From Proteiniphilum sp. (GTDB lineage: Bacteria; Bacteroidota; Bacteroidia; Bacteroidales; Dysgonomonadaceae), in NCBI GenBank assembly GCA_015478855.1, contig JADMKJ010000161.1, forward strand, positions 14,523 to 72,735: a DNA stretch of 58,213 nucleotides, read 5' to 3'. The notes beneath the pieces were generated by a model. It was not told the origin of the DNA. It saw nothing but the letters and a program-made list of their open reading frames with translations, and did not search any database. The translations under genes were made by a program, and so were the position numbers. Numbering within the stretch: the stretch's first letter is position 1; every line of letters begins with the position of its first letter. Below, one piece after another: positions 27,686 through 47,435 of this stretch.

Positions 27686-28672
27686 TCAATCCCATATTAT
27701 GGCCTGATCCTCATCAGGTACCTGGGTATTTATTCTTCGTTGTAATGCCAACGAACCCACGACATGGTAATCGATCTGAAGGCCTTCCACTGTTGTATAA
27801 TCGGTATATTCATATTCTATTTCAAGGATGATATTCCTGTTCATCAGATAAGGCAGGGTTTCATCCATGCTCTCGGTGATCGAATAAATAGGCGTACCAA
27901 TTACATTCAGGTTAATATCAGGATTATCGGCATAGATGGTCAATGTTTGCCCTTCATCATCGTTGAACCGAACAAAGATCTTATAGTGTCTCCGATCTGA
28001 CCGGTCTTCATCAATAAGTCCTGCATAGAAGAAAACAGTGTTTTCATCCACCACGTAGGCCACCTTGGTATCGGTTGAGATACCTCCGGAGGTACTTCCT
28101 TTGAAAAACACCATGAACGCGGTGGAACTGTAATTCCCCGAGTAATCGTTGAATGGAAAAACACGCAACAATGCTTTCCTGTAATTTTTACGCATATTCA
28201 CCAGGTAACTACCACTCGAAGAGTCAAGTATGGTGACAGGAAGAACCCATTTCTCCACCAAATCCAACTCAGCAAATGAGAACGTAATCGGCAATAATCC
28301 TTTGTTCTCTCCGGCCATAATATCGGCTGTTTGTGGCATTGAATAAAATTGTGATGTCAGTTCCTTGAAATATAATTCGGTACGGGTACTGAAGCGTTCT
28401 TCATTCAATGCAATCAAAGTATCGGAGTCTATTGCTACACTTACTGACATCTGCTTATCATTCTTTGTTGATCCGCTGACAATCAACGGAAGCTGATACG
28501 TTACCTCGCCATTCTCCTTGTAACGCAAGTAGATGGGTGTAACACCTTGCGCATTGGGAGTAGCTTTTAAAGAGACCAGATTCATAAATTGTTCATCTTC
28601 CCAATCGCTGCTGCATGACACACACACTAGAAGTGCGGTCATAATTGCAAATATAATGTTTATTTTTTTCAT
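27686..28672 (-). CDS. DUF1735/BT_3987-type surface lipoprotein (candidate glycan-binding protein)
   Basis: I place the start at the internal Met encoded at 28670-28672 because it opens a lipoprotein signal peptide (hydrophobic run, then LVCVSCSS), giving 328 residues. An upstream in-frame Met at 28723 would add 17 residues that do not fit a signal. The N-terminal 150 residues match the DUF1735 (BT_3987-like) domain, a beta-sandwich found in lipoproteins of glycan-uptake loci, and the C-terminal half looks like the DUF4361-type domain often paired with it. The protein is probably exposed on the outer membrane and holds mannan for SusC/SusD. It follows SusD with a 124-bp gap that contains a relic of a start region. 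Confidence 0.78.
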   Translation of the reverse strand: MKKINIIFAIMTALLVCVSCSSDWEDEQFMNLVSLKATPNAQGVTPIYLRYKENGEVTYQLPLIVSGSTKNDKQMSVSVAIDSDTLIALNEERFSTRTELYFKELTSQFYSMPQTADIMAGENKGLLPITFSFAELDLVEKWVLPVTILDSSSGSYLVNMRKNYRKALLRVFPFNDYSGNYSSTAFMVFFKGSTSGGISTDTKVAYVVDENTVFFYAGLIDEDRSDRRHYKIFVRFNDDEGQTLTIYADNPDINLNVIGTPIYSITESMDETLPYLMNRNIILEIEYEYTDYTTVEGLQIDYHVVGSLALQRRINTQVPDEDQAIIWD

Positions 28673-28770
28673 ACGATTAAAATATTTATTTACATCAATG
28701 TGTATTGAACTCGCTTTAATCATGTTCTTGTGTGAGAATGATCCTCAGGCTCGTTTCATACGATTAAAAT
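28667..28770. repeat. 17-bp direct repeat flanking the SusD-DUF1735 gap
   Basis: TTTCATACGATTAAAAT occurs at 28667-28683 and again at 28754-28770, and four of the next five bases also agree. On the minus strand each copy reads ATTTTAATCGTATGAAA, a gene start. The first copy is the start of the DUF1735 gene; the second gives only four codons before a stop. Confidence 0.75.
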
Positions 28771-28796
28771 CTTTAATTTTTTTCAATGGTCTGCAT

Positions 28797-30872
28797 CTAG
28801 TCCCCATACGTCCAGCCCGGATTCTGGGTGAGCCGTTTATTTCTTTTCAGTTCTGTATGACTGAGAGGCCAGAACCACATCTTCTTGGAGAAAGTTGTAG
28901 GTAACGAGGTTACAACTACCGGCGTATGGAAGATATCCCGTTGTTCAACTGTTGCATATACATTGTATCCGTAAATAGGCTGAGATTCTTCCTGAGGAGC
29001 ATCCATCCAGCGACGTAAATCGAAATAGCGATGACCTTCACCCATGAGTTCAATCTGACGTTCACGTTTCAGTGTGGCACGGAATTCATCCTGATTACCA
29101 TATACCTGAGCATTATAGTCAGGAAGTCCGGCTCTTATACGTACCGGGCGGATACCCTTCTTCATTTCATCTGCACTGCGACTGATGGTATATGTTTGAC
29201 TACCATCCCACGAGGCGATGCTATGGTTTTCACTCAGCTCGTTTAGTGCCTCGGCATATATAAGCAGTATATCGGCATAGCGGATAGCCGGTTCAGTTTT
29301 GCTAACGAAGTTACCGGTAGTCTGATTCAGGTAGGTATCTTCAGGGTGAATGTATTTCATGATACCTATACCTGTACGAAGCCAGGCCGTACCATTGGAG
29401 TAGCCGCTGGCAGAGCCGCGATAATAAAATACCTGCTGGTTTCTCTTTGTTTCCAGTGTTTCATTCAACAAGTACCAAAATGCACCATTGTAAGCTACTG
29501 ACGCGTAAAAACGCGGCTCACGATCGGCAAATTGCAGGGAAACACCCTCTTTCAACGGTTTGTATCTCTCGAGACTGGCTGCATCGCTACCGACATATCC
29601 CATTAGTCGTTCACTACCATCACCACGACCAATTTCGCGGTCTTTGCCCGGCACATCAGTACCGTTGTTCATATAATAGGCATCGGCTTGTTTCAATGTC
29701 AACCCGTGTGTATTGTTACCAGATCCTTCAACCGGCAACTGGTGTATGATCATACGATTCATGCCGGGATTAACTACATTTTGTCCACGGGTAAAGATCA
29801 GTTCTACATTCCCATACAGCGATATAGAGCCATTAAAAAGCGTGCGATAGGATTCGAAAGGATCGATATTTTTCCAGCCATTAGGCCAGTTTGCATTGGC
29901 GAACGCCTCATTTTCAGGAGTAACGGGAGGATGAATGGTAACGGGATACCCTTCCACTTCACTGTTTCGTACACCTGTAGTATAAAGGTCATACACACCC
30001 AGTTCCATCACATCGCGGGCTGCCGCCGCTGCTTTAGCCCATTTCGATTCATCGTAGGTAGCTGACAATAATTGCCGTCCCTCATCATCAAGCAGTTCTG
30101 AAACAAGAGTACCTGCCTTTCCGTTCGCCAGGGGACTGGCAGCAAATAATAATACTCTGGCACGCAAAGCCAGCGCTGCTCCACGAGAGGGACGAGCCGT
30201 ACTCAACTGGTCCTGGTGCAATGGAAGGTCTTTAGCTGCAAGCACCAATTCATTTGTAATAAAATCAGCACATTCGTCATACGTATTACGCGGCATCGCC
30301 ACTTCATCATAATCCAGGGTATAATCGATACCCTCATCCGGTAAAATGGGTACAGGACCGAATAAACGGAGCAGATGCCAGTAGAAATATGCCCTAAGGA
30401 AGCGTGCTTCGGCTTTTGTTGTTGCTATTTCATGCAGTGACATCTCCTCATTCATGTAGATATTCTGTAAATAGATAGAAGCTTGCCGGATACCCTTGTA
30501 CGCATCTGTCCACACATTGGTGGTGATATTGCTTATATTGTCGCTTGAGCTGGTTGATGTACCTAAAGTCCCCTGTTCGGAATATTCACCGTTTTTCCAC
30601 ATTTTATATGCGTCGGTACGGTCGCCAAAATACATATCATCGGCAAAGTTGAATGGAATCCATTCTTTGCTGGCCACATCGGAGAGGTATCCATGCCCAA
30701 GATAATAGTAGGTGTTAGCCAGCCATTCCCTTGAGTAATCCTCACTTTTGAACACATCTTCAATGGATATACGATCCTGAAACAGGTAATCGGAATCCAG
30801 ATAATCGGAACAAGAATTAAATATAAGCATCGTTCCAATCGCGATTGATATAATAATATATTTACATTTCAT
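28797..30872 (-). CDS. SusD/RagB-family outer-membrane lipoprotein
   Basis: 691 residues. A signal peptide ends in IFNSCSDYLD, with the lipidated Cys near residue 21. The SusD fold is supported by the TPR-like helical opening (ASIYLQNIYMN, then KAEARFLRAYFYWHLLRLFGPVPILP), a family hallmark. Late blocks are EPAIRYADILLIYAEALNEL and LKRERQIELMGEGHRYFDLRRW, and the chain ends in NPGWTYG. SusD proteins cap the SusC barrel as a lid and bind the glycan. The length is somewhat above the usual 550-650. The SusC gene is 7 bp upstream, so the two are translated together. Substrate is inferred as alpha-mannan from GH76 and GH92. Confidence 0.95.
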   Translation of the reverse strand: MKCKYIIISIAIGTMLIFNSCSDYLDSDYLFQDRISIEDVFKSEDYSREWLANTYYYLGHGYLSDVASKEWIPFNFADDMYFGDRTDAYKMWKNGEYSEQGTLGTSTSSSDNISNITTNVWTDAYKGIRQASIYLQNIYMNEEMSLHEIATTKAEARFLRAYFYWHLLRLFGPVPILPDEGIDYTLDYDEVAMPRNTYDECADFITNELVLAAKDLPLHQDQLSTARPSRGAALALRARVLLFAASPLANGKAGTLVSELLDDEGRQLLSATYDESKWAKAAAAARDVMELGVYDLYTTGVRNSEVEGYPVTIHPPVTPENEAFANANWPNGWKNIDPFESYRTLFNGSISLYGNVELIFTRGQNVVNPGMNRMIIHQLPVEGSGNNTHGLTLKQADAYYMNNGTDVPGKDREIGRGDGSERLMGYVGSDAASLERYKPLKEGVSLQFADREPRFYASVAYNGAFWYLLNETLETKRNQQVFYYRGSASGYSNGTAWLRTGIGIMKYIHPEDTYLNQTTGNFVSKTEPAIRYADILLIYAEALNELSENHSIASWDGSQTYTISRSADEMKKGIRPVRIRAGLPDYNAQVYGNQDEFRATLKRERQIELMGEGHRYFDLRRWMDAPQEESQPIYGYNVYATVEQRDIFHTPVVVTSLPTTFSKKMWFWPLSHTELKRNKRLTQNPGWTYGD

Positions 30873-30879
30873 AATGTTC

Positions 30880-33800
30880 TTAAATATTAATTGTTAAACC
30901 TAATGTCAGAATTTTGGATAAAGGATATTTTATACCATCGGAACTACCCATTTCCGGGTCCCATAATTTGAAACTCGAAAATGTGACCAGGTTTGTACCG
31001 GTTAAGAATACCCTTACATTATTCGTTCTGATCCTATTGGTAAACTGTTTAGGTACAGTATACCCTATTTCTAAGGTTTTCAGACGAAGATATGCCCCAT
31101 TTCGCAACCAGTATGTAGAAGCCCGATAATTATTGGCATTGCCTCCGTAGCTCAGACGCGGGTATTCAGCATTTGGATCTTCGGTGGAAGGATCTCCTGA
31201 TATATCGGCTGATATCCAACGGTTAGCGTTTGCCATCTCGGTGAATACGTTACCCCAACCTGTGGTTGACCTGAACATATATACATTTGAACCGTTGATG
31301 AAGAATGAGGAATTTCCTGATCCCTGGAACAGAACGCTTACATCGAATCCTTTCCATTGAGCAGATAAACCCATTCCGTATATAAGGCCCGGTTTTGTGG
31401 TAGTTCCGATTGCAACAATATCGCTATTGTCTATCACGCCGTCGCCATTCACATCCTGATATTTTATGTCACCGGGCATTACCTGAAAATTATCGAACGA
31501 TTGAGTGGGGCTATTGCGGATATCATCGTAATCTTTGAACAAACCCTGAGCGATCAATCCTTTGGCTTGATCCATCATATAACCTTTCTCCATCAGGTAA
31601 GTGTAATAGTTGTTCTCTTCGTCTTTCTCCAACACCTTATTTCTCGCATATGTTGCATTACCGCGCATAGTAAGGTGTACATTACCCACTCTATGCTGTA
31701 GCTTAAAATTACCATCGAAGCCACTGTTTCTTGTTCTCCCCACATTTGCATAGGGACTGTTGCTCAATCCCAACATCGAGGGAAGATAATTTCGTCTGAT
31801 GAAGATTCCCTCCACATAATCATCAAAATAGTCGGCCGTAAGAGATAGCTTGTCGTTGAATAATGATAAGTCAACCCCGATATCTTTTTTGGTGGAGACC
31901 TCCCACGATATGGTTGGTGAGGCCAGTTCGGATATAAATAAACCGTTATAATTATTCACCCCACCATTCACATCAGCATACCTGTATCCATCTGTATCAG
32001 AGATTGTATAGAGGTAAGGAAAACGTGTATTCAGATTGTCATTTCCTACTTGTCCATAAGAAAAACGCAGCTTAAACATATCGAGCCATTCAACATTCTC
32101 TTTAATGAATGATTCTTCTGCTATATTCCAGCCTCCCGAGTAAGCGGGAAAGAATCCATAACGGTGCCCTGTGGCGAAATTTTCCGATCCGGTATATCCA
32201 AAGTTAAACTCGAGGAAGTAACGGTACTGGTAGCGATAAGTAAAACGTCCGGCCAGACTCTGGTTACGGAGTGCAATACCGTTTTTAAAGTCACTCCCGA
32301 TATCCACAGTCTGTGTTTTTGCCGATTGACTATATCTTGCTGTTGCGCCTACATTGTGATCTCCGAAACCGCGATCATAATAGAGGTTTGCCTCAAGAAA
32401 TTCGTTACGTTTCCCTTTTGAAGCACTCCTCTGAGACATCTCCTGCACTGTTGTTTGACGGGTGTATATGATCTCTCCATTATTACGGAAACGCTCAGCC
32501 TTCCATTGCTCCGGCAGTTTTTCACGAATGATCTCACTTTCATTTTCTGTATCGTACCCAAATTTACCTGTAAAACGCATGCCTTTGGTTATAAAATCCA
32601 GCTCTTGTTCAATGGTAATATTTGTTTGGATATTATTTCTCCAGGTCTCCTGATAACCGGTCATGGTTGCCAAAACCCAGGGGTTTGTACGATCGCCCGT
32701 GCCGAAAGCCGGCACATATCCGTTTGAGTAAAGCACCGGACTGGAGACGGGATTATATCCCATCAGCGAGTTCCAGATATAGTCACTACCAAGTCCGGCA
32801 TCATTGAATTTCTCCAATGAACCAGCAACACCAACTTTCAAAACAGTGGTCTTCGTAATGTCAACATCGGTATTCAAGCGATAGTTCCATTTTTTGTAGT
32901 TTGCATTGGTATCATAATCTTTCAGCGCATCATCGACCTTATACATTCCTCCCTGATCGATGTAGCTCCCTGAGACATAATAACGTGCTGTATTACCCCC
33001 TCCACTTAAATTCATCGATGCACGGTAGGTGAGTGCTCCATCTTTTAACAATACATTCTTCCAGTCCACATTCGGATATAGATCCGGGTCTAAGCCCATA
33101 CGCATAAGGTCTAACTCATCAGGCTGATAAAGTAATACCTGATTTCGGGTAAGCCTGGCTTCGTTTGCCATCGTAGCATAATCTACACCATCGATGAAAT
33201 CAGGCATTTGAGTAAGCTGACTGTACATTGTCTCGATCTTACCGTTTATATTTATTTTCCCTGTTTTACCACGTTTGGTATTTACCAGGATTACACCATT
33301 TGCTCCTTTCGAACCGTAGATGGCGGTTGCCGAGGCATCTTTTAACACTGAGAATGATTCCACATCTTCCACGTTGATCTCGTTCAGGTCTCTTTCGAAT
33401 CCATCTACCAACACGAGAGCCGCAGAATTACCCCCAAAAGTGGAAATACCTCGTATCCAAAACTCGGCTGTGCTTCCCGGTTTTCCCGATGTTTGCATGG
33501 CGATGATGCCCGGCACGTTCCCTGCAAGGGAATTCGCTATATTAGCCGATGGGTTCGACGTCAGGGTTTGCACATCCACGTTGGCAATTGCTCCGGTCAC
33601 AGTCAGCTTTTCCTGTGCACCGGTAGCTGTAATCACAATCTCCGACAACAAGCTGCCTTCTGATTCGAGCATGGTAATATTAATAACTCTATCTATTACG
33701 ATCGCTTCTTGTTTCTCGAAACCCAAATAGGAGAAAATCAAATGCTGATAGGTGTTTACCCTGACTTTATATCTTCCGTCAATATCTGTAACTGTTCCCA

Positions 33801-33951
33801 GACCCGGAGCATCTTTGATCGAGATATTAACCCCGATCAAGGGCTCATTGGTGTTATCTACTACTATACCTGTCACTTCGATGGCTTCCTGCGAGAGAAC
33901 AGATATGGAGAATCCGAGAAACAGGAAACAAACGATTAAAAATCTTTTCAT
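30880..33951 (-). CDS. SusC/RagA-family TonB-dependent transporter
   Basis: I start at the Met encoded at 33949-33951, which begins a signal peptide (MKRFLIVCFLFLGF, ending in VLSQ). The open frame continues 20 codons upstream without such a signal. The product of about 1023 residues has a CarboxypepD_reg-like domain (about 20-105), a plug with GISTFGGNSAALVLVDGFER and SFSVLKDASATAIYGSKGANG, and a long beta-barrel ending in LTLGLTINI. It imports oligosaccharides across the outer membrane, driven by TonB. No N-terminal STN domain is seen, so it is unlikely to signal to an anti-sigma factor; regulation by the divergent SARP-type protein is more likely. Confidence 0.95.
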   Translation of the reverse strand: MKRFLIVCFLFLGFSISVLSQEAIEVTGIVVDNTNEPLIGVNISIKDAPGLGTVTDIDGRYKVRVNTYQHLIFSYLGFEKQEAIVIDRVINITMLESEGSLLSEIVITATGAQEKLTVTGAIANVDVQTLTSNPSANIANSLAGNVPGIIAMQTSGKPGSTAEFWIRGISTFGGNSAALVLVDGFERDLNEINVEDVESFSVLKDASATAIYGSKGANGVILVNTKRGKTGKININGKIETMYSQLTQMPDFIDGVDYATMANEARLTRNQVLLYQPDELDLMRMGLDPDLYPNVDWKNVLLKDGALTYRASMNLSGGGNTARYYVSGSYIDQGGMYKVDDALKDYDTNANYKKWNYRLNTDVDITKTTVLKVGVAGSLEKFNDAGLGSDYIWNSLMGYNPVSSPVLYSNGYVPAFGTGDRTNPWVLATMTGYQETWRNNIQTNITIEQELDFITKGMRFTGKFGYDTENESEIIREKLPEQWKAERFRNNGEIIYTRQTTVQEMSQRSASKGKRNEFLEANLYYDRGFGDHNVGATARYSQSAKTQTVDIGSDFKNGIALRNQSLAGRFTYRYQYRYFLEFNFGYTGSENFATGHRYGFFPAYSGGWNIAEESFIKENVEWLDMFKLRFSYGQVGNDNLNTRFPYLYTISDTDGYRYADVNGGVNNYNGLFISELASPTISWEVSTKKDIGVDLSLFNDKLSLTADYFDDYVEGIFIRRNYLPSMLGLSNSPYANVGRTRNSGFDGNFKLQHRVGNVHLTMRGNATYARNKVLEKDEENNYYTYLMEKGYMMDQAKGLIAQGLFKDYDDIRNSPTQSFDNFQVMPGDIKYQDVNGDGVIDNSDIVAIGTTTKPGLIYGMGLSAQWKGFDVSVLFQGSGNSSFFINGSNVYMFRSTTGWGNVFTEMANANRWISADISGDPSTEDPNAEYPRLSYGGNANNYRASTYWLRNGAYLRLKTLEIGYTVPKQFTNRIRTNNVRVFLTGTNLVTFSSFKLWDPEMGSSDGIKYPLSKILTLGLTINI

Positions 33952-34014
33952 AATGCGTGTATATTTGTTTAAATAGTGAACACTTAATTGTTTTATCATG
34001 GCATTTGTCATTCA

Positions 34015-35415
34015 TTAATCTTCCCATGCTATTTTACGAACGCGATGATTTCCTGTATCCCCGATATAGAAGATGTCGTTAACCTCATCATATGCAATAC
34101 CCTCAGGATTGTAGAAACGAGCCTCTTCACGCAGGTCACCATCCACATATCCATCTACCGCATTGTCAGCACTCACGCTTCCGCGTCCGGCAAATGTGGA
34201 AACGATCCCTTCGGGAGTTACCTTTCTTATACAATGATTCTCCCGATCACAGAAATAAAAATCATATTCATCCGCTTTACCGGCATAATCGGGATTTTTC
34301 ACAAATACCCCCTGAAAAGGTGCCTCCAGTCGGGCTCTTTTACCTACGCCATCAGCCCAGCCATTGTTGCCCGGATCTCCACAAAACACGTATGGTGTTG
34401 TTAACCTTTTAGTTGTCCAGTCATAGTCTGTCCTCATAATGGTACCCTTGTCGGCAAGGCACAGATAGGCATAGTTGCCACTCGGATGTATCACAATCTT
34501 GAAGTCTGTATTGGTGGACTGAACCTGGAATAATGCCGGGCTCGTTACTTGTGTGTCTATGTCGTAATGATATATGCTCCCACTTTCTGAGTCACCCAGG
34601 TATAACTCACCGTTCACAGGATGAATTGCCGATCCGGAACATCTTCTTGTCCCGGTTATAAGAAACGGTGAAGTCTTGAATTCATTATTCCTGGTAAGAA
34701 TGGCATTACTTTGGGGAGTGCTGCTGCGCCACGTGGAAACAATCATGGTATCGGCGGTCAGTGTCCAGGAAATTGAACGCATACGATACATCACACCTCC
34801 TAGTCCCCCATCCACGTAGAGCGTGCTCAGGTACTTATTCTTCAGGTCGATCAAACGTGCCGCCGTTTGGTCTCCCACCAGGTAGAGGTGGCTGGCGTTC
34901 TTAGGATCGAACGACAGCCATCCGATTTTAGCTATCCCCCCCGCATTACCAAAAGGCCCATCTTTTATTTCATATTCACCTTTCTCGTCTACGTGCCCCA
35001 CCAGGGTAGTAACAAGTCTTTTCGTTACATAGTCGAACCTGGTACTGGCAGTTGTTCTGGCCTGCTCCATCCCGTTGTCATCATAAACAATGACTTCAAT
35101 GGTTCCTTCGCCGGCTTTTTTGGGAACCACCACGTACAGGTAAGAGCCATTGGCCCCTACAACAGTAGCCCTGGCACCTCCGATGGTAACGACTATGTTC
35201 TCGGCATTGGTTCCAAAATTCTGGCCTGTCAACATCAGGCGGGTATTTGCCCCCCCGGTTTCGGGCGAAAAGGAAGAGATGGATATCGGTTTATCCGGAT
35301 TGAAAACCACTTCATTGTCACTATCACTACAGCTTCCGAAGAAAAAGAGGGTCAGTACCAGCGAGATCCAGTGGACACGCCAGTTTTTGATATTCATGAT
35401 ACTTTTCGATTTCAT
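34015..35415 (-). CDS. IPT/TIG plus NHL-repeat lipoprotein (candidate surface glycan-binding protein)
   Basis: 466 residues from the first Met, but the signal peptide is better read from the Met seven codons in (MNIKNW...), ending in FFFGSCSDSD. Residues about 40-130 form an IPT/TIG immunoglobulin-like domain (SISSFSPETGGANTRLMLTGQNFG). The rest is a beta-propeller of NHL-type repeats, most clearly ENHCIRKVTPEGIVSTFAG and GNHRVRKI near the end. This architecture recurs in glycan-uptake loci of Bacteroidota, where such proteins are surface binding partners of SusCD. No catalytic residues are recognised. It ends 63 bp before the chosen SusC start. Confidence 0.82.
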   Translation of the reverse strand: MKSKSIMNIKNWRVHWISLVLTLFFFGSCSDSDNEVVFNPDKPISISSFSPETGGANTRLMLTGQNFGTNAENIVVTIGGARATVVGANGSYLYVVVPKKAGEGTIEVIVYDDNGMEQARTTASTRFDYVTKRLVTTLVGHVDEKGEYEIKDGPFGNAGGIAKIGWLSFDPKNASHLYLVGDQTAARLIDLKNKYLSTLYVDGGLGGVMYRMRSISWTLTADTMIVSTWRSSTPQSNAILTRNNEFKTSPFLITGTRRCSGSAIHPVNGELYLGDSESGSIYHYDIDTQVTSPALFQVQSTNTDFKIVIHPSGNYAYLCLADKGTIMRTDYDWTTKRLTTPYVFCGDPGNNGWADGVGKRARLEAPFQGVFVKNPDYAGKADEYDFYFCDRENHCIRKVTPEGIVSTFAGRGSVSADNAVDGYVDGDLREEARFYNPEGIAYDEVNDIFYIGDTGNHRVRKIAWED

Positions 35416-35466
35416 AATGAATCTATTTTAATACTATTTATACTTGAACCTATTTACTTGAACTTA

Positions 35467-36984
35467 TCAATCTCCTCTACCCAATTCATATTTTGCAAGG
35501 AGCGCATACTCTGAGGCAAAGGCAAGGGCAAACATTCCTCTGACATTATTCTCACTTTCGGTATTCTGCCAGCCCAACAATAAATCAGATGGCAAAAAGC
35601 CCTTATACAGGAATCTTTCATATCCATAATCGAGATTCCGCTGGAAACTTTCCAGGTAATCATCCACCCCTTTATAAGTGGGATAAACATCGAGATAGCC
35701 CCGCATCAATACGCCGTTGAACCAATTGCGATGCCCACTGAGATCGTAAGTGTAGTACCCGGGCACCTTTGATCCTAGCTCCGCAAAATAATGGAAACTG
35801 GCATCCGATAAAGTCACGGCATCATCGAGGTATACCTGTGCACCGGTAACACGATACAGATCAGCGGCTCCTGAGAGCATTGTGCCGCTGTTGTAGGTGA
35901 TTGGCGGGCCTGCATTCTCAGGCAGAGGTGCATGTTTGCGATATTCCACTCCGTTGATCGTTTCATAGGATACTTTTCCGCCGCCACCCCGCATATCGTT
36001 ATATACCCCCCGGGCGGTCAACAGGTTGCTCTTTTGCCAGTGGTAAATCTTCTGAGCGAATGTAAGGTAGTAGTCACTCTTCTTCATGGTCGCTTTTACA
36101 CGGCGCTTGTCGGTATCGATATACAGGTATTCTATCTCATCGTTTTTGTCTTTGTAGAGCTCCGACAGCCATACCAAAGGACTGATAAACGGGCTATTGC
36201 TGCACGCATGCTTCGAGGTATAGCCGGGGCCCCAGGTAATGCCCCCCTGTTCATTCCCTTCACCGTCTAGTGTACTATCCCAACCATCCAGAACATAACG
36301 GGTAAGATACTCTGCTTCATGCAGGTACTCAACATAACCTGTCAGGTTGTACGCCTTTAACAATTCACGCACAAGCCATTGCTGATCGTCATATACGTTC
36401 TTTTTATTATCGGTACCGGCAACATTTGCCTTTCCTTTCTCTTCTCCCCGCGGAACAGCATACACCGCCCAATTGCGGGTTTGCGTGTAGGATGTCAGGG
36501 TGAAAGAGCCTTTATAATAGGCTGCATTGCTATAGAGCCTGGCCAATAAGTCGGAATAGCGACTGTAATGCGTGTCATACAACTCCGGGTTGCCATACTC
36601 CTTAAAGGCTTCCAGCCCTTCCATCACTACGTTTACGGCTTCAATGGCACTGGTATACCCCCAAATGCTTTCCGTACCGCTGCTGATTTCAGTAAATGGA
36701 TTGTAATTCTTGGCCATACGCATGCCATCACCGATAAAAAAGTGGACCATGATGTGATCCAGCAGCTCGATGGAGCGTGTTAGGTTCCTTTCAGCCAATT
36801 CCGGTACGATTGTGACAGAATCGGGATTGATTTCTGAATGGGGATCAGGGTCAGGAGTCTCCGGCAGTTCCGCTGCAGGGGTGATATGATCTCCCGTATG
36901 GCTGCAAGCGCCCAGCATTGGGAGAGTGCAAAGAATGGTAACCAGCATGGATAACATTATTTTCATTATTATCATCATTTTCAC
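35467..36984 (-). CDS. GH76 alpha-1,6-mannanase (second copy), lipoprotein
   Basis: 505 residues. The signal ends in LPMLGACSH, so Cys at about 27 should carry lipid, and a Pro/Asp/Glu-rich spacer follows. The GH76 domain is collinear with the copy at 23.6 kb: VYDDQQW carries the catalytic Asp pair, with GGITWGPGYTSKHACSN and SGTMLSGAADLYRVTG downstream. The lipid anchor suggests it starts digestion at the cell surface, while the other copy, without a lipobox, may act in the periplasm. That division of labour is inference from known mannan loci. It starts 10 bp after the 704-aa lipoprotein gene. Confidence 0.93.
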   Translation of the reverse strand: MKMMIIMKIMLSMLVTILCTLPMLGACSHTGDHITPAAELPETPDPDPHSEINPDSVTIVPELAERNLTRSIELLDHIMVHFFIGDGMRMAKNYNPFTEISSGTESIWGYTSAIEAVNVVMEGLEAFKEYGNPELYDTHYSRYSDLLARLYSNAAYYKGSFTLTSYTQTRNWAVYAVPRGEEKGKANVAGTDNKKNVYDDQQWLVRELLKAYNLTGYVEYLHEAEYLTRYVLDGWDSTLDGEGNEQGGITWGPGYTSKHACSNSPFISPLVWLSELYKDKNDEIEYLYIDTDKRRVKATMKKSDYYLTFAQKIYHWQKSNLLTARGVYNDMRGGGGKVSYETINGVEYRKHAPLPENAGPPITYNSGTMLSGAADLYRVTGAQVYLDDAVTLSDASFHYFAELGSKVPGYYTYDLSGHRNWFNGVLMRGYLDVYPTYKGVDDYLESFQRNLDYGYERFLYKGFLPSDLLLGWQNTESENNVRGMFALAFASEYALLAKYELGRGD

Positions 36985-36994
36985 GTTATTTCAA

Positions 36995-39109
36995 TTAATC
37001 CAGGTCAATACTGTATATCTGTATTTTGTTTTCACTTGTATCCGGAATCACATTGTATACGCCAATGACAATCACTACGTTATCACCTACGTACGGCGAC
37101 AGGTCATATTCAAACACGGCATATTTCTCCGGTTCAGATGAACTACCATCCATATTACTGAACCTGACACAGCCATTGATGTTGCCACCGGATCTGTCTG
37201 TTGTAGAATAGACGGCTGCTTCATCCGTCGCGTTAATCGTGGCATTTGAGGGAACAATGTGCGTAACCGTTCCATCTTCCCTGACGACCGACAGTTTAAA
37301 GTATGTTTCACGATCGGGCCTGCTGCCGCTTCTGTCGTTGCGCGCCTTTAACGTTAATTGATTGGCTGAGGGTGTAATGGCAAACTTCGAATAGATATAT
37401 GCATGCGGCACGATCGAGGCATCGTAATTCTCCATTGACGAATTGCCGCTGTTGGTTTTGAGGGTATAGCCACTGGAGTTAAATACATCCGGTTCTTTGT
37501 ATAAAGCTACCGGGGTCCATTCACCTCCCAAATGATTCGTTCCTCGCCATGCACGATAAGCATCTATATAGTTGCTACTGCTTCCATTTTCAATTCTCAT
37601 ACCGCTGAACGAAGTATGGCGATTCACCATGGTTGAACGTACCATCTCTTTTGTCAGCTTCCATCCCTCAACAACCTCTGTCCCCGGCATCCAGTCAACA
37701 CCCATGACAGGCTGATGTGCAAACCGTACAGAACGAAGCACCAGCTGTTTGTAATAATCCCCTGTCCCGGCGCGATAGATGCCAATGGCAATGATCACTT
37801 CTTTGCCTACATAATCGCTCAGATCGAAAACAAAATCAGCATATTCGGAAGAACCGTATGTCTGAACCTCCCCTATTTTCACAGCAGTAGGTTTCACTGC
37901 TGAAAGATCGACAACCTGCACACCGAAATGAGCCGGAGCCTCGGCGTCTGCATTATGGGTACGCACTCTCAGTGAAAGAACCTTATTCTCGTTGGTTATC
38001 GCTTTACTTCCATATACAAACGAATCGAATTTGTCCAGATTAGCCGGATTTGTCCGGTCGGATTCATCATTTCGAATACGCAATGTTGTACCCTCATTCT
38101 GTTCTGCAAGATTGCCGTAATAATCCGAAATACACAGTGTGTTGACCGACCAATACCAATGATAGTCGTCATCTCTTGTTTTTCCTCCCTGTAGCACATT
38201 ATAATTCCATACGCGGGTCATTGCAAGATCATCCAGGGTCAGGTTACCCAGAACCATTCCATCATTGACCTCCATTGCAATGGATAACGACACCAACTTA
38301 TCCTGAAAATCAGTGGGAGAAACCTCTGTAGTAACGTCATGATAACCCTCTTTTGAGAAGGAAAGGATATAATCCTTTTCATCAAGTCCTGTAAATGCAA
38401 AAGTCCCATCCCCGTCGGTGCTCGTTATCTTCTCATCCAGGGTGACAGTTACACCCGCCATCACCTGGTTGGTTTCAGAATCAGTAACAGTACCTTCAAT
38501 GACCGACTTAGGTTCCAGTTGCATGTTCAGCGTAGCAATCCGGTCAACAAAATCGCCGATAGCAACAGAACCTGTATCCGGGAAATAGCCTTCTATATTG
38601 AACTCAAGCGTATAATCACCTCTTTCAAAACCTTCAAAGACGTATATTCCGTTTGCATCGCTGGTCACCGTTTCGTCGTTTGAAACAATACTGACCCCCT
38701 CGAGAGGCAGACCTGTTTCGACATCGGTGATCGTGCCTGTGATCGTACCAATATCTCGTAACATGGATACATCAAGTTCAAGATTATTTCTTATATCGAA
38801 ATTGCCTGTTTCTACCTCCTTGATCACAGTAACATACCCAATTAAACTGTAGGTAATCGTTTGTTCAGCCACAGTAACGTTATTCAGACTGTAATTACCG
38901 TTTTCCTTTGTAACAGCGGTCCTGTCCATTCCTTCCACAGATACGACAACATCTGGAAGAGAGATTCCCTGCTCATCGGTTACAACACCGTGAAGTGTTC
39001 CTGTCCGTATAGCTGACGGGGCATCATCATCGCAGGAACTTACCATGGATACTATAATACCAAGCATGGCCGTGAACAAAAACGTTCTTAAAAATTTGAA
39101 TTGTCTCAT
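36995..39109 (-). CDS. Lipoprotein with three carboxypeptidase-regulatory-like repeats and two tandem beta-sandwich domains
   Basis: 704 residues. The signal peptide ends in VSMVSSCDDD. Three carboxypeptidase-regulatory-like modules of about 75 residues occupy roughly 38-285; each begins with GTxxGxVTD or similar and has a GYSL-type core. The C-terminal 420 residues hold two related segments, each ending in a matching motif: FDLSDYVGKEVIIAIGIY near 425 and YDLSPYVGDNVVIVIGVY near 671. They look like tandem jelly-roll carbohydrate-binding domains, but I recognise no named family. As first gene of the leftward PUL transcript it is probably a surface glycan-binding protein. A -7 box lies at 39201-39208. 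Confidence 0.72.
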   Translation of the reverse strand: MRQFKFLRTFLFTAMLGIIVSMVSSCDDDAPSAIRTGTLHGVVTDEQGISLPDVVVSVEGMDRTAVTKENGNYSLNNVTVAEQTITYSLIGYVTVIKEVETGNFDIRNNLELDVSMLRDIGTITGTITDVETGLPLEGVSIVSNDETVTSDANGIYVFEGFERGDYTLEFNIEGYFPDTGSVAIGDFVDRIATLNMQLEPKSVIEGTVTDSETNQVMAGVTVTLDEKITSTDGDGTFAFTGLDEKDYILSFSKEGYHDVTTEVSPTDFQDKLVSLSIAMEVNDGMVLGNLTLDDLAMTRVWNYNVLQGGKTRDDDYHWYWSVNTLCISDYYGNLAEQNEGTTLRIRNDESDRTNPANLDKFDSFVYGSKAITNENKVLSLRVRTHNADAEAPAHFGVQVVDLSAVKPTAVKIGEVQTYGSSEYADFVFDLSDYVGKEVIIAIGIYRAGTGDYYKQLVLRSVRFAHQPVMGVDWMPGTEVVEGWKLTKEMVRSTMVNRHTSFSGMRIENGSSSNYIDAYRAWRGTNHLGGEWTPVALYKEPDVFNSSGYTLKTNSGNSSMENYDASIVPHAYIYSKFAITPSANQLTLKARNDRSGSRPDRETYFKLSVVREDGTVTHIVPSNATINATDEAAVYSTTDRSGGNINGCVRFSNMDGSSSEPEKYAVFEYDLSPYVGDNVVIVIGVYNVIPDTSENKIQIYSIDLD

Positions 39110-39424: not shown

Positions 39425-41935
39425 ATGCGTGCATTCAATAAAAAAATTCTTTTTGCTTTATTTATTTTTTATTCGCTGAATCTGCAGGGAATCTATGCTG
39501 AGGGGCTTCGCTTTTTCGGAAAAGAGAACCCGATAGATGAAAGAACATCCTACAATGTTTTCAATGAGAAATCCGTCTCATTCTCAGAATATTGTGAAAT
39601 AAAATTTGATCTTACCCTATACGAGACACCCCATATAGGCAATATATTGCGGATTAAGACCAACAGTGATGACCATATATTCAACCTGTTCTATAACGGC
39701 CATGAAGAGAATTATCTTTTTTGGTTGAATGAGGAGGGAAGAAGTAATTTAATAAGTATCCCTATAGACAAATCAGACTATCCTCCGGGGCAATGGCTTA
39801 CCATCCATATCGGATTTGACCTTAAAGATGGAACAATCACACTTACCGTCGGCGATCAGACCTCAAAGGCTGAGAATATCCCTCTTCCTGAGAAATTCAC
39901 CCCAACACTCATATTTGGTAAGAGCGATCATATCATCGATGTACCACCATTTGCCATCAGGGACCTTTCCGTGGGCAACAGTGAAAAATATAGGTTTCGG
40001 TTGAATGAATCCCAGGGAAACAGAGTGCATGATGCCCGGGGAAAGGAGATAGGGAGCGTAACCAATCCCTATTGGCTGATTAATGATTCATATCACTGGA
40101 AATCGGAAGCTCATTTCAATTTTTCCACCGTTTCGGGGACTAGTTACCATAAAGGGCGACATGAACTCTATTATTTCAACCGTGATTCGATAGTAATATA
40201 CAACATAAGATCGAAAAGCTCCGAAACAATCGTATTCAATACACCTTGTCCTCTTGAAATCAGGCTGGGGACAAATTTTATTGATCAGGATAACAACCGG
40301 TTATATTGTTACGAGGTATATCGCAGCTCTTATCAGGAACCAACAGTAGTTAGTCTCGATTTGAATTCTTTCGAGTGGCGGATCGAAAGCTACGACCGCC
40401 TGACTGTGCAACTGCATCACCATGCTTCTTTTTTCGACTCCTCATCGGGAATGTACCTGATTTTCGGGGGCTTCGGAGACAGACGTTTCAGCGATGAATT
40501 TCACCAATATGACCTTGAAAGACAGGAATGGAGTAAATACCCTGTAGACAACAGGGGAGGTATTACTCCCAGGTATTTTACCTCATTGGGACATGACGAA
40601 GAAAACCACCAGCTATATCTTTTCGGTGGTACAGGAAATCTATCGGGCAACCAGCTACTGGGTAGGGAGTATTTTTATGATCTCTACCGGCTGGATCTAC
40701 AGACCAAAGAGATCACAAAAGTATGGGAGATCCCATGGTATAAGGATAATGCCGTACCGGTAAGAGGAATGGTCATCACGAATGAGTCGTTTTTTTATAC
40801 ATTATGTTATCCGGAACATTTCACAGAGTCGTTTCTGAAATTATACCGTTTTTCGTTCAAAGATGGAGACTATACTATATTGGGCGATTCCATTCCCATC
40901 TATTCTGATAAGATAAATACCAATGCCAATCTTTACTACGACAATGAAGTGAGTACCCTCTATGCTGTGGTGCATGAATTTGATGACGACATTCAATCAG
41001 AATTGCATATTTATTCACTCGCATCTCCCCCTATTACAAAGAATGAACTGTCCAACCATCCACCGACGGGAAAGCAGAGTGAAGGCTGGATTAACTATTT
41101 AATGATTGGTGTGATAGCGCTGGGGGGAGGGCTCCTTTTAATTCTGTTCGTCAGAAAGAACGGAAGAAATACCCCTGTTCCTGATGTCGGGAAGACTTCC
41201 TATGAAAAGCTCGTTGCGTCCAAACCGGCACCAAGAGCCAATACAATATTTCTTTTCGGTGAGTTTACTGTCTGTGACCGTGACGGAAGAGATATCACTT
41301 ATATGCTCAGTAAAAAACTGAAAGAGACATTCTGTCTTTTATTGCAATACAGCCAGGAAAGGGAGGGTATCGCATCTCAGCAACTGAGCAGGCAACTATG
41401 GCCACAGAAACTTTCTCAGGAGGTTAAGAATATAAGAAATGTGACTTTAAACAGACTCAGAAAAATATTAGAGGAACTGGATGGAATAGAACTTCTGTAT
41501 GAAAGGGGAATATTCTTCCTTGTACAGAGAGATCCGTTCTATTGTGACTACACTGGATGTATGCAGATCCTATCAGAGAGAAAGTGGGAAGCCGAGTACC
41601 AGGAGCTGTTGGACATTGTGAGCAGGGGTAAATTCTTAGAGAATGAAGATTTACCATCTTACGACTCATTCAAAGAGAAAACGGAGAAACAGATTGAGCC
41701 GCTCATCCTGAGTGCAATGAAGGAGAACTATGACAAAGAGGCCTGGCAGACGGTTATAGACCTCGCACAAGCAGCTTTTCATATTGACCCTATGAATGAG
41801 GCAGCACTCAGTCATATGATCAATGCGATGCAAAGATTGGGAATGAATGAAGATGCAAAGATGAAATATCTTTCATTCCTTATAGAATACAAAAGAATTA
41901 TGGGAAAAGAATATCCTAATCCTATAAAACTATAA
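39425..41935 (+). CDS. Membrane-spanning regulator: LamG-like and Kelch sensor, winged helix plus BTAD output (SARP-type)
   Basis: 836 residues. Order: signal peptide (1-25); concanavalin/LamG-like beta-sandwich (about 28-205); Kelch-type propeller (about 210-545, with SGMYLIFGGFGD and HQLYLFGGTGN); one membrane helix (about 556-577) followed by a basic Arg/Lys stop; an OmpR-like winged helix (about 603-705, FGEFTVCDRDGRDITY and RNVTLNRLRKIL); and a helical BTAD-like end (about 706-836). Known SARPs are cytoplasmic actinobacterial activators. Here the sensor should be periplasmic and the DNA-binding part cytoplasmic, all in one chain. It is divergent from the mannan locus, so it is the obvious candidate regulator. 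No kinase or receiver motif is present, so it is not an HTCS or SusR type. Confidence 0.82.
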   Translation: MRAFNKKILFALFIFYSLNLQGIYAEGLRFFGKENPIDERTSYNVFNEKSVSFSEYCEIKFDLTLYETPHIGNILRIKTNSDDHIFNLFYNGHEENYLFWLNEEGRSNLISIPIDKSDYPPGQWLTIHIGFDLKDGTITLTVGDQTSKAENIPLPEKFTPTLIFGKSDHIIDVPPFAIRDLSVGNSEKYRFRLNESQGNRVHDARGKEIGSVTNPYWLINDSYHWKSEAHFNFSTVSGTSYHKGRHELYYFNRDSIVIYNIRSKSSETIVFNTPCPLEIRLGTNFIDQDNNRLYCYEVYRSSYQEPTVVSLDLNSFEWRIESYDRLTVQLHHHASFFDSSSGMYLIFGGFGDRRFSDEFHQYDLERQEWSKYPVDNRGGITPRYFTSLGHDEENHQLYLFGGTGNLSGNQLLGREYFYDLYRLDLQTKEITKVWEIPWYKDNAVPVRGMVITNESFFYTLCYPEHFTESFLKLYRFSFKDGDYTILGDSIPIYSDKINTNANLYYDNEVSTLYAVVHEFDDDIQSELHIYSLASPPITKNELSNHPPTGKQSEGWINYLMIGVIALGGGLLLILFVRKNGRNTPVPDVGKTSYEKLVASKPAPRANTIFLFGEFTVCDRDGRDITYMLSKKLKETFCLLLQYSQEREGIASQQLSRQLWPQKLSQEVKNIRNVTLNRLRKILEELDGIELLYERGIFFLVQRDPFYCDYTGCMQILSERKWEAEYQELLDIVSRGKFLENEDLPSYDSFKEKTEKQIEPLILSAMKENYDKEAWQTVIDLAQAAFHIDPMNEAALSHMINAMQRLGMNEDAKMKYLSFLIEYKRIMGKEYPNPIKL

Positions 41936-42740: not shown

Positions 42741-45700
42741 TCAGATATTTTTCAATAAACAGAGGTAGGCATCTTCAAGGTTGGCTTCTACCTGAACAGC
42801 ACCGGGATATGGCTCGGTATCTGAGATATACCTTACCTGAATCCTGTCTCCATCCTGTATATTATGTACCACCAGTGACTTGTCCAGTTTTTCCTCAAAC
42901 GACTCCTTATCAATCAGGAACTGCCAGACATTCCCAAAAGCCATGTCGACCATCTTCTCCGGTACCCCGAAATACTTCAACTCCCCTTTGTCTACCACCG
43001 CCACCTGATTGCATGAGCTGGATATATCTTCAATGATATGGGTAGAGAAGATGACTATGCGATCTTTGCTCAACTCTACCAACAGGTTGCGGAAACGGAT
43101 ACGTTCACGTGGGTCAAGGCCGGCAGTGGGTTCATCCACCACAAGTATACGCGGCAGGTTCAGCAGTATCATCGCAATACCGATACGTTGCTTCATTCCG
43201 CCTGAGAAGGAACCGATCTGATCATCCTTGCGCTCATCCATATGTACCGACTTCAAGACGTATCCGATACGTTCATCCCGCACACTGCTGTCGGTCAACC
43301 CTTTCAGGATCGCCTGATAATCGAGGAATTCCCATGCAGTCATATTCTCATACATCCCGAACTCCTGCGGAAGGAAGCCGATCAGACTCTGCAGCTCTTC
43401 CCGGTAGAGACGGGTATCCAGGCCGTTGATCCAGATGCTCCCGTAACTCTGTTCCAAAATACCGGTGATGATACGCATCAGGGTCGATTTACCGGCACCG
43501 TTGGGTCCCAGTAATCCGAACATACCTGTTTTTATTTCAAACGAGACACCACGCAATGCTTTAAACGGACGACGACGCCTGCCAAGCAGCGGGATGCTCA
43601 TGACCATACGGAAATAGGAACGTTTCAACCCGGCATAGCGGCCTGTGACTCTCTCGATATTGACATTCCTCCTGTACAGAAATTGTGACGAGATATAGAT
43701 GGCGATACCCACCCCCCACAAAGCACCAATTATCAACACCATCGGCAGATTATCCAGCATCCTGTAAAGACCCCACAGGATCAATGGAGGCATGCTCCAG
43801 AAGAGGATGCGGTTGATGGTTCTCACGATCTTGCTCCCTTCATAACGATAAAACAGGTATGCCCGCATCTTACGCCATAAATAGAGTGTGGCAGCATACA
43901 TCACAAATGAGAAGAGAAAACCCCACAACCTGCTTTCGAGATAAAAGTAAGTGAAATAGAAGCCAAACCCCCACAAGATAAACTGCCAGGCAACAGGGAT
44001 AAAATCTTTCAGCGAATGGTATTCACCACTCAGCCCCATACGTCTCCTTATTTCCAGGCCGCTGTTCCATTCACGCGTAAAACGACCGGAACGATCATAG
44101 ATCTTCACCAGGCTGCGTACGACTATCTCTACCTCCTGATCCGGATCAACGACATCTGCTCTGGCACGACGCAGGCTGGTCTGCGCAAAAAAGGTAACTC
44201 CCGGGATCAGCACTGCAAGCACCGTAAGGTATAACACCTGATACAACATACCCTCTCCATAGAGATAGATGGCTGCCACACCGGTCACAAAAAGCAGGAG
44301 ATGGATGATCTTTGTTCTTACCGTCAGCGTCTGATACCATTCCAACGCATTCTCCAGTCCCATATATACTGTCGGGATAATCAGCAGTGTCAACAAGGTT
44401 GAAAAAGCCAGACCGCCGATGACAGTAATGGCAAACGGTGCACCGATAGCTCCTGCATACTCAGTATTGCCCATGGCTAGCGGCAACATGGCAATAATCG
44501 TAGTGATGGCCGTAATCAGTATGGGTCTGATACGGGATATCCCTGCTGTCATCAATGCTCGTTCACGCCGGTATCCACGTTTACGCAACAGTTTTGAATA
44601 GTCGATCAGGATGATGCCATTGTTCACCACCACACCCAGCAGGATAAGGAATCCCATTAACGTATTTGCGTTGAGCAGGCTGTTGCCGGTAAGGAACAAT
44701 GCGATCAGTGAGCCGATGGCCGCCAGGGGTATCGAGAAGAGGATGACCAGTGGGGTCGTGACCGACTCAAACACCATTGCCAGGATCATAAATATCAACA
44801 AAAAGGCGGCGAGGATAAGAAATTTAAAATCAGCAAACTGATCCTCCTCGTGGATCACTTCGATGGCCACACCGGCAGGCAGATTGTAGCCGGTGATCAG
44901 CTGGTCGATGTCTGCACGATACCCTTCAAGCAACGTTTTGGATTGTTCGATGCCAGGCAAGAACCCGTAACGCACATCCAGTTGTTTATCCTGATTCACA
45001 CGGATGATGCGGGAGCGTCCGTATCCTTTGTTGACCGAGGCAATATCCTTCAGGTTGTGCAACCCGCCGCTGCTGTTCATGATCTGCACCGCATGGAGAT
45101 CATCGATGGTTTTTTGCTTATTCTGCTGCTCCTCCTCCTCTTCGGTCATTTCATCCCGAATGATGATATCATATGATTCATCACCCACCTTGAACGTGGT
45201 TCCTGAAGAAAACTCACTGTCAAGCTCCGATAAGCCAGTCAGAATATTGGTGCGTGTAATGCCATATGAAGTGAGCAGTATCTGATCAAAATCAAGCATG
45301 ATTTCCGGCTGACGACGCATGAAAGAGACGCGGGTATTTTGTATGTACTCCTGTTGCTCCAGTTGATACCGGATATCTTCGGCAACCAGCTGCATCATTT
45401 CATAATCCGAACCTTTGACAATGATCCTTTCCTGGTTGTCACCGATACCCAGCAGGCTCATGAAGCCGACCATGCCACTCATCCCTCCTGCATTGTCCTG
45501 ACCACCTCCCGTGGCATCGGCCACAGTGATCTCTGCTCCTCCTACATTGGGTATTCTGGACTGCAGGTCTGCTTTGATCTCGGAGATCGTACGCTTCCCT
45601 ATTTTTTGAAAGTTCTCCTGCAATATCAGTGTCAGCATAGCCTCTTCCTCATTTACACGACTAATCAGCTCTTTCTTTTCGGGGATCACCTCCAGGCTTT

Positions 45701-47435
45701 CTTCCATCACCTTTACTACATTATCTGTACTCTCTATTGTACTTCCTGCAGGCATCGTAACATAGATATTGAAACGGTCTGAGTTCACCTCCCTGTTTTG
45801 TTGCACTGCCGTGGTGAGCGATAGGATCAGCACCACAAAAAGCAGGATGAGGGAGCCGAAGATGGTCTTTCCCGGATTTCGCAGGCATGATTTTAACAAC
45901 ACAAGGTATACCTGTATCGGACGTTGTGTCAGGGTCACCTTTTCGTAAAAGACCGTTTTACTTTTTTTACTGCGTAGAACCAGATAGGCAGCCATAGGGA
46001 CGAATAACAACGCCACGGCGAGCGACACAAGAAGAGTAGAGATAATCGATACGCCGATATGGGAACCCATAAGTTTCAGCAGGAAGTTATCGGAGAAGAT
46101 AAATGGCAGGAAGATAATGACCGTGGTAAGTGTTGCTGCTACTATGGAACGCAACACCTCTTTTGTCCCACGACTGACCGATTTGCCGGCAGTGAGCCCC
46201 ATGCCTGACAACCGATAGATATTCTCCAGGACCACGATACTGTTATCCAGCAGCATACCTACCGCCAAAGCCATTCCGACCAGTGTGAGGCTATTCACTG
46301 AAATGCCCGCATAATAGAAGAAGCTAAAAGCGGTGAAGACTGAAATAGGGATGGAGAGAGCAATAAAAAATACCAACCTTACATTCTTCAGGAAAAACCA
46401 GAGTACCAGGATCGCGAGCAACCCACCCATCAAAGCAAGGTTGATGATCTGATTGATGTTGTTCTCCATTACTTCTGCCGTGTTGGAGTCAACCACGATC
46501 TCCACGTCATGCAGCACCAGTCGTTCGTTCAGTTGTTCAACGGCATCCAACGTGCGATGTGACAGGTCAATCAGGTTGGCTTGTGCATCGCTGACAAGTG
46601 AAACAGAGATTGCTTCTTTTCCATTGACCCGGCTATAGGAGGTCTCTTCTTTCAGATCGAAGAAAATTGTGGCAATATCTTTCAGCAACACCGGTCCGGG
46701 AGCAACCACAATGTTTTCCAGATCTGACACTTTGGTATAGGAGGAATGTACATGGACGAAATACTGGCTCTCCTTTTCTTTCACGGTGCCGACAAACACC
46801 TTCTCACGTGCGTTGTTGTTCAGCAGGCTGCTGACGGCGGAAGGCGTGATATTCAGCGCCTTGCCGGCCTCCTTATTCAGCTGTACCTCAATGGCCCGCT
46901 CACGTCCGCCGAACACCTGAACAGCAGCGATCCCGTCAATATTCTCCAGCTCCGTCACCACCTCCTCTTCCACAATGTTGCGCACACGGTCGACTCCTCC
47001 GGAGCCTCTCACCTGGAGAGAGATGAACGTGTTGTTCATCATCGAGACATCCATCTTCTGCACGCGCACGTTAAAACCTGCCGGTAGCGATGCCGATACT
47101 TCCTTCATCTTCTCCTCCAGCCGCAGCGAGGTGGTATTAAAATTCACATTGCTCTTAAAGTCGACACGTATGGATGACTGGCGGCTGCTGATCTCCGATT
47201 GTATCCTGTCCACCCCACCCACGGAGCTGATGGCACCTTCAAGCGGTATGATCACTTCCGACTCCACAAAAGCAGGATCCATCTCCTGTTGTGAGGTAAC
47301 GGAAACATACAGCATGGGCAACTCCGCATTGGGAAGCAATTCTACCGGTAGTTGTTTATAGGAGACATACCCCAAAAGGGTAGATGCTATAAACAACATA
47401 CTGATTGTTACTCTTCTGTTTAAAAGAAAGTCCAT
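42741..47435 (-). CDS. RND-family efflux pump fused to an ABC ATPase domain
   Basis: 1564 residues in one uninterrupted frame. Residues 1 to about 1020 are a full RND (AcrB/HAE) transporter: N-terminal helix, two porter loops, and membrane blocks including GMLLDNSIVVLENIYRL and GVVVNNGIILIDYSKLL. About 1020-1285 adds roughly six more membrane helices with short soluble stretches. About 1285-1520 is a complete ABC nucleotide-binding domain: Walker A GPNGAGKST at 1310-1318, Q-loop GFLPQEFG, signature SFSGGMKQR, Walker B ILVVDEPTAGLD and H-loop FSTHIIEDI. Proton-driven and ATP-driven modules in one polypeptide are highly unusual. It lies between a separate RND gene and an ABC-2 permease. A sequencing join is unlikely because the frame is intact throughout. 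Confidence 0.88.
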   Translation of the reverse strand: MDFLLNRRVTISMLFIASTLLGYVSYKQLPVELLPNAELPMLYVSVTSQQEMDPAFVESEVIIPLEGAISSVGGVDRIQSEISSRQSSIRVDFKSNVNFNTTSLRLEEKMKEVSASLPAGFNVRVQKMDVSMMNNTFISLQVRGSGGVDRVRNIVEEEVVTELENIDGIAAVQVFGGRERAIEVQLNKEAGKALNITPSAVSSLLNNNAREKVFVGTVKEKESQYFVHVHSSYTKVSDLENIVVAPGPVLLKDIATIFFDLKEETSYSRVNGKEAISVSLVSDAQANLIDLSHRTLDAVEQLNERLVLHDVEIVVDSNTAEVMENNINQIINLALMGGLLAILVLWFFLKNVRLVFFIALSIPISVFTAFSFFYYAGISVNSLTLVGMALAVGMLLDNSIVVLENIYRLSGMGLTAGKSVSRGTKEVLRSIVAATLTTVIIFLPFIFSDNFLLKLMGSHIGVSIISTLLVSLAVALLFVPMAAYLVLRSKKSKTVFYEKVTLTQRPIQVYLVLLKSCLRNPGKTIFGSLILLFVVLILSLTTAVQQNREVNSDRFNIYVTMPAGSTIESTDNVVKVMEESLEVIPEKKELISRVNEEEAMLTLILQENFQKIGKRTISEIKADLQSRIPNVGGAEITVADATGGGQDNAGGMSGMVGFMSLLGIGDNQERIIVKGSDYEMMQLVAEDIRYQLEQQEYIQNTRVSFMRRQPEIMLDFDQILLTSYGITRTNILTGLSELDSEFSSGTTFKVGDESYDIIIRDEMTEEEEEQQNKQKTIDDLHAVQIMNSSGGLHNLKDIASVNKGYGRSRIIRVNQDKQLDVRYGFLPGIEQSKTLLEGYRADIDQLITGYNLPAGVAIEVIHEEDQFADFKFLILAAFLLIFMILAMVFESVTTPLVILFSIPLAAIGSLIALFLTGNSLLNANTLMGFLILLGVVVNNGIILIDYSKLLRKRGYRRERALMTAGISRIRPILITAITTIIAMLPLAMGNTEYAGAIGAPFAITVIGGLAFSTLLTLLIIPTVYMGLENALEWYQTLTVRTKIIHLLLFVTGVAAIYLYGEGMLYQVLYLTVLAVLIPGVTFFAQTSLRRARADVVDPDQEVEIVVRSLVKIYDRSGRFTREWNSGLEIRRRMGLSGEYHSLKDFIPVAWQFILWGFGFYFTYFYLESRLWGFLFSFVMYAATLYLWRKMRAYLFYRYEGSKIVRTINRILFWSMPPLILWGLYRMLDNLPMVLIIGALWGVGIAIYISSQFLYRRNVNIERVTGRYAGLKRSYFRMVMSIPLLGRRRRPFKALRGVSFEIKTGMFGLLGPNGAGKSTLMRIITGILEQSYGSIWINGLDTRLYREELQSLIGFLPQEFGMYENMTAWEFLDYQAILKGLTDSSVRDERIGYVLKSVHMDERKDDQIGSFSGGMKQRIGIAMILLNLPRILVVDEPTAGLDPRERIRFRNLLVELSKDRIVIFSTHIIEDISSSCNQVAVVDKGELKYFGVPEKMVDMAFGNVWQFLIDKESFEEKLDKSLVVHNIQDGDRIQVRYISDTEPYPGAVQVEANLEDAYLCLLKNI

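Follow-up and report, generated by a model that had tools for sequence, protein, structure and literature searches.

The minus strand of the window, the stretch of 58,213 nucleotides of Proteiniphilum sp. DNA analysed here, carries a gene in which an RND permease and an ABC ATPase are joined in one protein, and the seven-gene cluster to which it belongs is proposed, with a probability of about 0.6, to encode a single envelope-spanning exporter that draws on two energy sources (Table 1). RND pumps are normally proton-driven, and in TolC systems ATP and protons count as alternative ways of powering the inner-membrane step. The fusion gene is one uninterrupted frame of 1564 residues with no internal stop, in which Pfam ACR_tran matches residues 2-1025 (518 bits, cut-off 28) and ABC_tran matches residues 1294-1438 (96 bits, cut-off 25). 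An earlier first-pass annotation, made from the letters alone, had described an RND transporter at about residues 1-1020 continuing in frame through extra membrane helices into an ABC ATPase with all motifs. The frame, both domains and the motifs hold up, with Walker A (GPNGAGKST) at residues 1310-1318, the signature (SFSGGMKQR) at residues 1409-1417, and Walker B and the H-loop also found, and the structure model predicts six membrane helices past the RND part, grouped two plus four; the strand had been left unstated, and both the interruption of the ATPase by membrane helices and the conserved seven-gene cluster around the fusion had been overlooked.

Table 1. Coordinates in the window of the fusion gene, its parts and the other genes of the cluster.
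Feature	Position	Strand	Basis
RND-ABC fusion gene, 1564 aa	42741..47435	-	single frame; Pfam ACR_tran + ABC_tran
RND part, residues 1-1030	44346..47435	-	ACR_tran 2-1025; D397, R968, R970, T975 in 113/113
Extra membrane hairpin TM13-14 (predicted), residues 1039-1092	44160..44321	-	model helices 10-30, 34-63
First ABC ATPase strand with A-loop tyrosine (predicted), residues 1104-1113	44097..44126	-	model strand 75-84
Four-helix membrane insert in ABC ATPase (predicted), residues 1142-1255	43671..44012	-	model, between strands 75-84 and 262-272
Remainder of ABC ATPase, residues 1291-1564	42744..43565	-	ABC_tran 1294-1438
RND partner without ATPase, 1040 aa	47462..50584	-	ACR_tran 670 bits
Stand-alone ABC ATPase, 306 aa	56961..57881	-	ABC_tran 112.6 bits
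ABC-2 half-permease with large periplasmic part (M1-peptidase-like, Golvesin_C), 1225 aa	53265..56942	-	
TolC-type outer-membrane channel, 500 aa	51714..53216	-	Pfam OEP
Periplasmic adaptor (MFP), 350 aa	50629..51681	-	NCBIfam RND_mfp 191.6 bits, cut-off 94.9
ABC-2 half-permease, 238 aa	42020..42736	-	4 bases past fusion

In the predicted structure, the ABC domain of the fusion is itself interrupted, with a first strand, four membrane helices and then the rest of the domain. The AlphaFold2 model of residues 1030-1564 (65 sequences, pLDDT 85.1, pTM 0.67) places strand 1104-1113 ahead of four long helices and the next strand from residue 1291, the position of the insert relative to the ATPase being uncertain at this pTM. 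All 50 structural matches listed begin at the first strand (model residues 67-74), the comparison giving first and last aligned residues only, and TM0544 (1vpl) aligns to the model over 234 of its 238 residues with an rmsd of 1.8. Since the matches start at strand 1104-1113, the predicted ATPase fold appears to close across an insert of about 175 residues. In sequence this segment resembles the opening strand of an ABC ATPase together with its A-loop, and the stand-alone ATPase of the cluster begins with a similar pattern. Residues I1104, K1111 and Y1113 are invariant in the 113 full-length fusion frames, as are K1316, Q1357, S1411, G1412, G1413, D1434, E1435 and H1466, so that the A-loop aromatic, Walker A, Q-loop, signature, Walker B and H-loop are all found in every one of them, in a domain predicted to have the ABC ATPase fold.

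The numbers of membrane helices are even throughout, at 12 + 2 + 4 (or 2, as L168 and L103, which shares a contig with L167, lack one helix pair of the insert), and both parts of the ATPase would therefore stay cytoplasmic. The regulatory insertion of CFTR likewise separates the first strand of an ABC ATPase from the second; that insertion is soluble, whereas the one in the fusion is predicted to hold two to four membrane helices, and we know of no described ABC protein with membrane helices between strands one and two. The case suggests that membrane helices can enter an ABC ATPase without costing it a catalytic motif.

By sequence profile, the RND part is AcrB-type and full length, covering positions 3-1018 of the 1021 of the ACR_tran model. 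Residues D397, R968 and T975, which we take to be the counterparts of AcrB D407, R971 and T978, are invariant in the 113 full-length frames along with R970, and D397 aligns with the first aspartate of the MdtB pair. The second aspartate (D408) and the lysine (K940) of AcrB presumably correspond to N398 and N938 of the fusion. Asparagine is found at the former position in 99 of the 113 frames, with T, S or C in the others, and at the latter in all 113, such that neither the AcrB-like second aspartate nor the lysine is present. The best-scoring RND model of the curated NCBIfam set, RND_permease_2, gives 441 bits, compared with a cut-off of 1250; because the second aspartate and the lysine are absent, the fusion is described here as RND-like and is not filed as a standard HAE-1 member. 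Nearly all of 68 rows for the plain RND partner repeat this residue pattern; the aspartate is present in 67 of them and unread in the remaining one. Taken with the intact ABC motifs, the sequence suggests no dead motor on either the RND or the ABC side. Elsewhere in the same genome (L165:3495-7337; G000:C92), a 1281-aa RND protein with four ACR_tran stretches is encoded near a CusB-like adaptor with HMBD and HMA metal-binding domains.

The genome containing the window is a draft of 236 contigs, as would befit an artefact of assembly or annotation, or a decaying chimera; either is extremely improbable given the conservation of the gene. Among 24 same-genus relatives, nine carry the fusion, including G011, where it lies in two contig pieces, and G006, where it is cut at the N-terminus, and seven carry it at 79-88% identity. 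In comparisons with these seven, omega is 0.04-0.08 for the RND part and 0.02-0.05 for the ATPase remainder after the insert; the insert itself has 0.08-0.16 and the junction of 73 residues 0.15-0.49. All these values are rough, as many dS values exceed 1. The whole frame, with no internal stop and with the junction included, is thus kept as protein under purifying selection, which argues against an artefact.

Within the order, 54 of 393 genomes (counting that of the window) carry the fusion, 44 as a single complete frame and 10 as a partial one, and no complete unfused RND was found among these 54 with a profile built from fused proteins. The partial fusions are those of G437, G502, G550, G671 and G689 and of G035, G038, G599, G673 and G693, the last five having been checked and confirmed to lie at contig ends; G038, considered as a relative with the RND part only, was rejected as its contig ends inside the gene. 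Six of 392 genomes drawn from the phylum carry the fusion, again with the window's own counted, and four of these lie outside the order.

Named loci were scanned with the RND part alone, so that unfused close relatives could also have matched. Among the best 80 of 567 matches, 71 loci hold a full-length fusion and seven run off a contig end, while the frame is broken in L104 and split in L115. The loci of named, as opposed to metagenome-titled, strains within these best 80 hold the full fusion in 16 of 16 cases, a count that also speaks against an assembly artefact; carriers include Bacteroides faecis, Parabacteroides faecis, Prolixibacter bellariivorans and Marivirga sericea. The first-pass annotation had allowed that relatives might always keep the two parts as separate genes; they are separate in L115 alone of the same 80 loci. 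Of the 128 frames that match strongly across all fetched loci, 113 are full length; the two collections share some contigs. Queries were built from fused proteins, and the fused share is therefore valid for close relatives, with an RND part of 46% identity and up; more distant RND matches (24-30% identity) stop near residue 1030, unfused, as do the other RNDs of the host genome, which are also unfused. The sequence sets used comprise the window's copy with 64 of 67 (A4) and 56 of 62 (A5) dereplicated homologues, and with 36 of 54 in A6.

Seven genes on the same strand, separated by gaps of 4 to 48 bases, make up the cluster, with the fusion in sixth place: ABC ATPase, large ABC-2 permease, TolC, adaptor, RND, RND-ABC fusion and small permease. 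A script count over loci with enough flank gave the RND partner in 75 of 76, the adaptor in 66 of 67, TolC in 63 of 64, the large permease in 61 of 62, the small permease in 62 of 69 and the stand-alone ATPase in 52 of 59. The small-permease misses include L099, L100, L117, L119 and L135, where it is encoded as longer frames, and L115, where it sits behind the separate ABC gene; none was seen in the 3 kb fetched past the fusion in L071. Among the ATPase misses, the edge of the locus truncates L056, L057, L073, L091 and L134, and no ATPase was seen at the locus in L071 or L099. The single misses of RND partner, adaptor and TolC are likewise L071, and that of the large permease is L099.

The same association is seen genome by genome. 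The small permease is found in 51 of the 393 genomes of the order, every one among the 54 with the fusion, which bears out the link with the 238-aa permease raised in the first-pass annotation. The large permease is found in 53, of which 50 carry the fusion; in the other three (G549, G594 and G687) the cluster reaches the contig end. Genomes with the fusion and no small permease (G038, G599 and G739) or no large permease (G035, G673, G693 and G739) likewise all reach contig ends. The recurrence of the fusion and its partner genes in many Bacteroidota suggests one envelope-crossing machine, since two half-permeases, two ATPases, two RND proteins, an adaptor and TolC are nearly always together.

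The small permease has a predicted ABC-2 (NosY/ABCG-like) fold, and such a six-helix ABC-2 permease is the partner characteristic of type V exporters. Within the large-permease family, 37 members scanned gave Golvesin_C in 37, ABC2_membrane_2 in 19, Peptidase_M1 in 12 and ABC2_membrane_4 in three. An HExxH motif occurs in one of 66 large-permease frames and is lacking in the window's copy, making a working peptidase unlikely. The M1-peptidase-like part and Golvesin_C end of this protein are perhaps those of a substrate-binding pseudo-enzyme.

The stand-alone ATPase is 42% identical to the fused one and is its best other match in the host genome; its signature, Walker B and H-loop are kept in 36 of 36 rows, some of them cut at locus edges. 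Fused and stand-alone ATPases cluster together against 14 other ABC rows of the host genome with support of 99/97, in a tree where the outside rows are long-branched, two of the 14 are identical in sequence, and three of the 17 other host matches are omitted (missed by the script). The stand-alone group by itself is weakly supported (69/77). Across the 46 loci having all parts, distances in the RND part track those in the insert, the ABC part, the stand-alone ATPase, TolC, adaptor, RND partner and small permease (Mantel r 0.84-0.92, the highest of 200 permutations each being 0.27), a correlation that shared descent and linkage alone would also yield.

From this gene content we infer a physical complex in which the exporter would have two ATPases, the ABC domain of the fusion and the stand-alone enzyme, and the two RND proteins would form a mixed trimer docked on the adaptor and the TolC channel. 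The fusion would bind the ABC transporter to this trimer by 18 membrane helices, 12 of the RND part, two of the hairpin and four of the insert. Transport would be outward and in two steps: an ATP-driven step may move the substrate, which might be a lipid, peptide or amphiphile, across the inner membrane or out of it, after which the proton-driven RND trimer would hand it on through the adaptor and TolC. The first-pass annotation had offered two mechanisms, with ATP hydrolysis powering or gating an RND pump, or with an ABC exporter tethered to a TolC route; the tether is favoured here as the more probable of the two, as the two ABC-2 half-permeases and second ATPase of the cluster give the fused ATPase a transporter to drive.

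If two plain RND subunits and a fused one make up the trimer, the single fused ATPase could pair with the stand-alone one, while at the opposite ratio two fused ATPases would pair with each other. In L099 (a metagenome bin) the fusion is intact and neither ATPase nor large permease was seen beside it, an arrangement that would fit the ratio with two fused subunits and that suggests that the fused ATPase may not always need the stand-alone one as its partner. The covalent RND-ABC link offers a handle on this stoichiometry, and if the two motors are joined in one conserved protein, any coupling of the two energy sources becomes directly testable.

FtsEX and MacB are mechanotransmitters, and on their model the fused ABC domain may instead be a regulator, with ATP gating or assembling the RND trimer and no ABC-2 substrate path of its own. 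The covalent attachment of the domain to an RND subunit, and the restriction of the ATPase to one of the two RND proteins of the cluster, are consistent with such a role; however, an ABC-2-fold permease found only in fusion genomes directly follows the fusion, and the cluster holds a second permease half and a second ATPase, and regulation is therefore considered an unlikely explanation.

Alternatively, the cluster may encode an ABC-2 exporter and a functionally separate RND pump, held together for joint expression and position and uncoupled in energy and substrate. In L115, one metagenome contig and the only real-looking split, the RND part and hairpin end together, followed by about 220 bases that carry stops in all three reading frames and then by a new ABC frame that opens just before strand 1104-1113, as expected of a domain boundary. 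In L071, a metagenome bin, the fusion is intact and unrelated genes stand in place of TolC, adaptor and RND. These two loci indicate that covalent and genetic linkage is not absolutely required, as separate transporters would allow, but the fusion is otherwise kept in the great majority of the best-matching named loci (71/80 of the best 80 of 567) down to 45-50% identity, and the selection on the junction also weighs against uncoupled systems, which are decidedly unlikely. The frames of L104 and L116 are broken in the N-terminal third, and L116 also lies at a contig end.

The single exporter that we favour can be set beside known systems. Each of its parts is of a known kind, and the whole is taken as a variant of the tripartite pumps that stands a fair chance of forming a separate class. 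It resembles the HAE-1 tripartite pumps, including the mixed-trimer RND pump MdtBC (PMC8277102), in its ACR_tran fold, its adaptor and TolC in the cluster and its paired RND genes, but differs in that one RND subunit bears a complete ABC ATPase and six additional membrane helices. As in MacAB-TolC (PMC8277102), an ABC ATPase has adaptor and TolC partners, whereas here the permeases are ABC-2-like, an RND pair is present, and Pfam matched no MacB family to either the fusion or the permeases, a result on profile matches only. Unlike in the ABC-2 or type V exporters NosDFY, ABCG, ABCA and PmtCD, the ATPase is fused to an RND pump and is interrupted after its first strand.

The first-pass annotation knew of no described transporter of this kind, and this agrees with the open-access literature (most subscription papers and all bioRxiv preprints lie outside it), where searches turned up no RND permease bearing an ABC ATPase. 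Passages of a review on tripartite pumps (PMC8277102) and of a phylogeny of RND proteins (PMC10872679) likewise mention no such fusion, and the main text of the latter has no word that starts with 'ABC'. A new exporter class, in which an ABC-2 ATPase anchored by membrane helices is part of a proton-driven RND trimer and both energies act on one substrate, is a tentative proposal with odds somewhat short of even.

No frame except ABC ATPases matched more than two others of 20 sampled stretches outside the cluster, and these unshared flanks thus give no clue to the substrate. In the window, an 836-aa Kelch-repeat protein (39425-41935, plus strand) runs towards the end of the cluster and, by our own sequence reading, has a single membrane helix and a C-terminal part like that of a regulator; a homologue lies at the same place in L056 and L148. 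Genes for polysaccharide use (GH92, two GH76, SusD, a TonB-dependent receptor and DUF4973) occupy positions 23619-39109, and a UvrA-like protein of 931 aa is encoded at 5207-8002.
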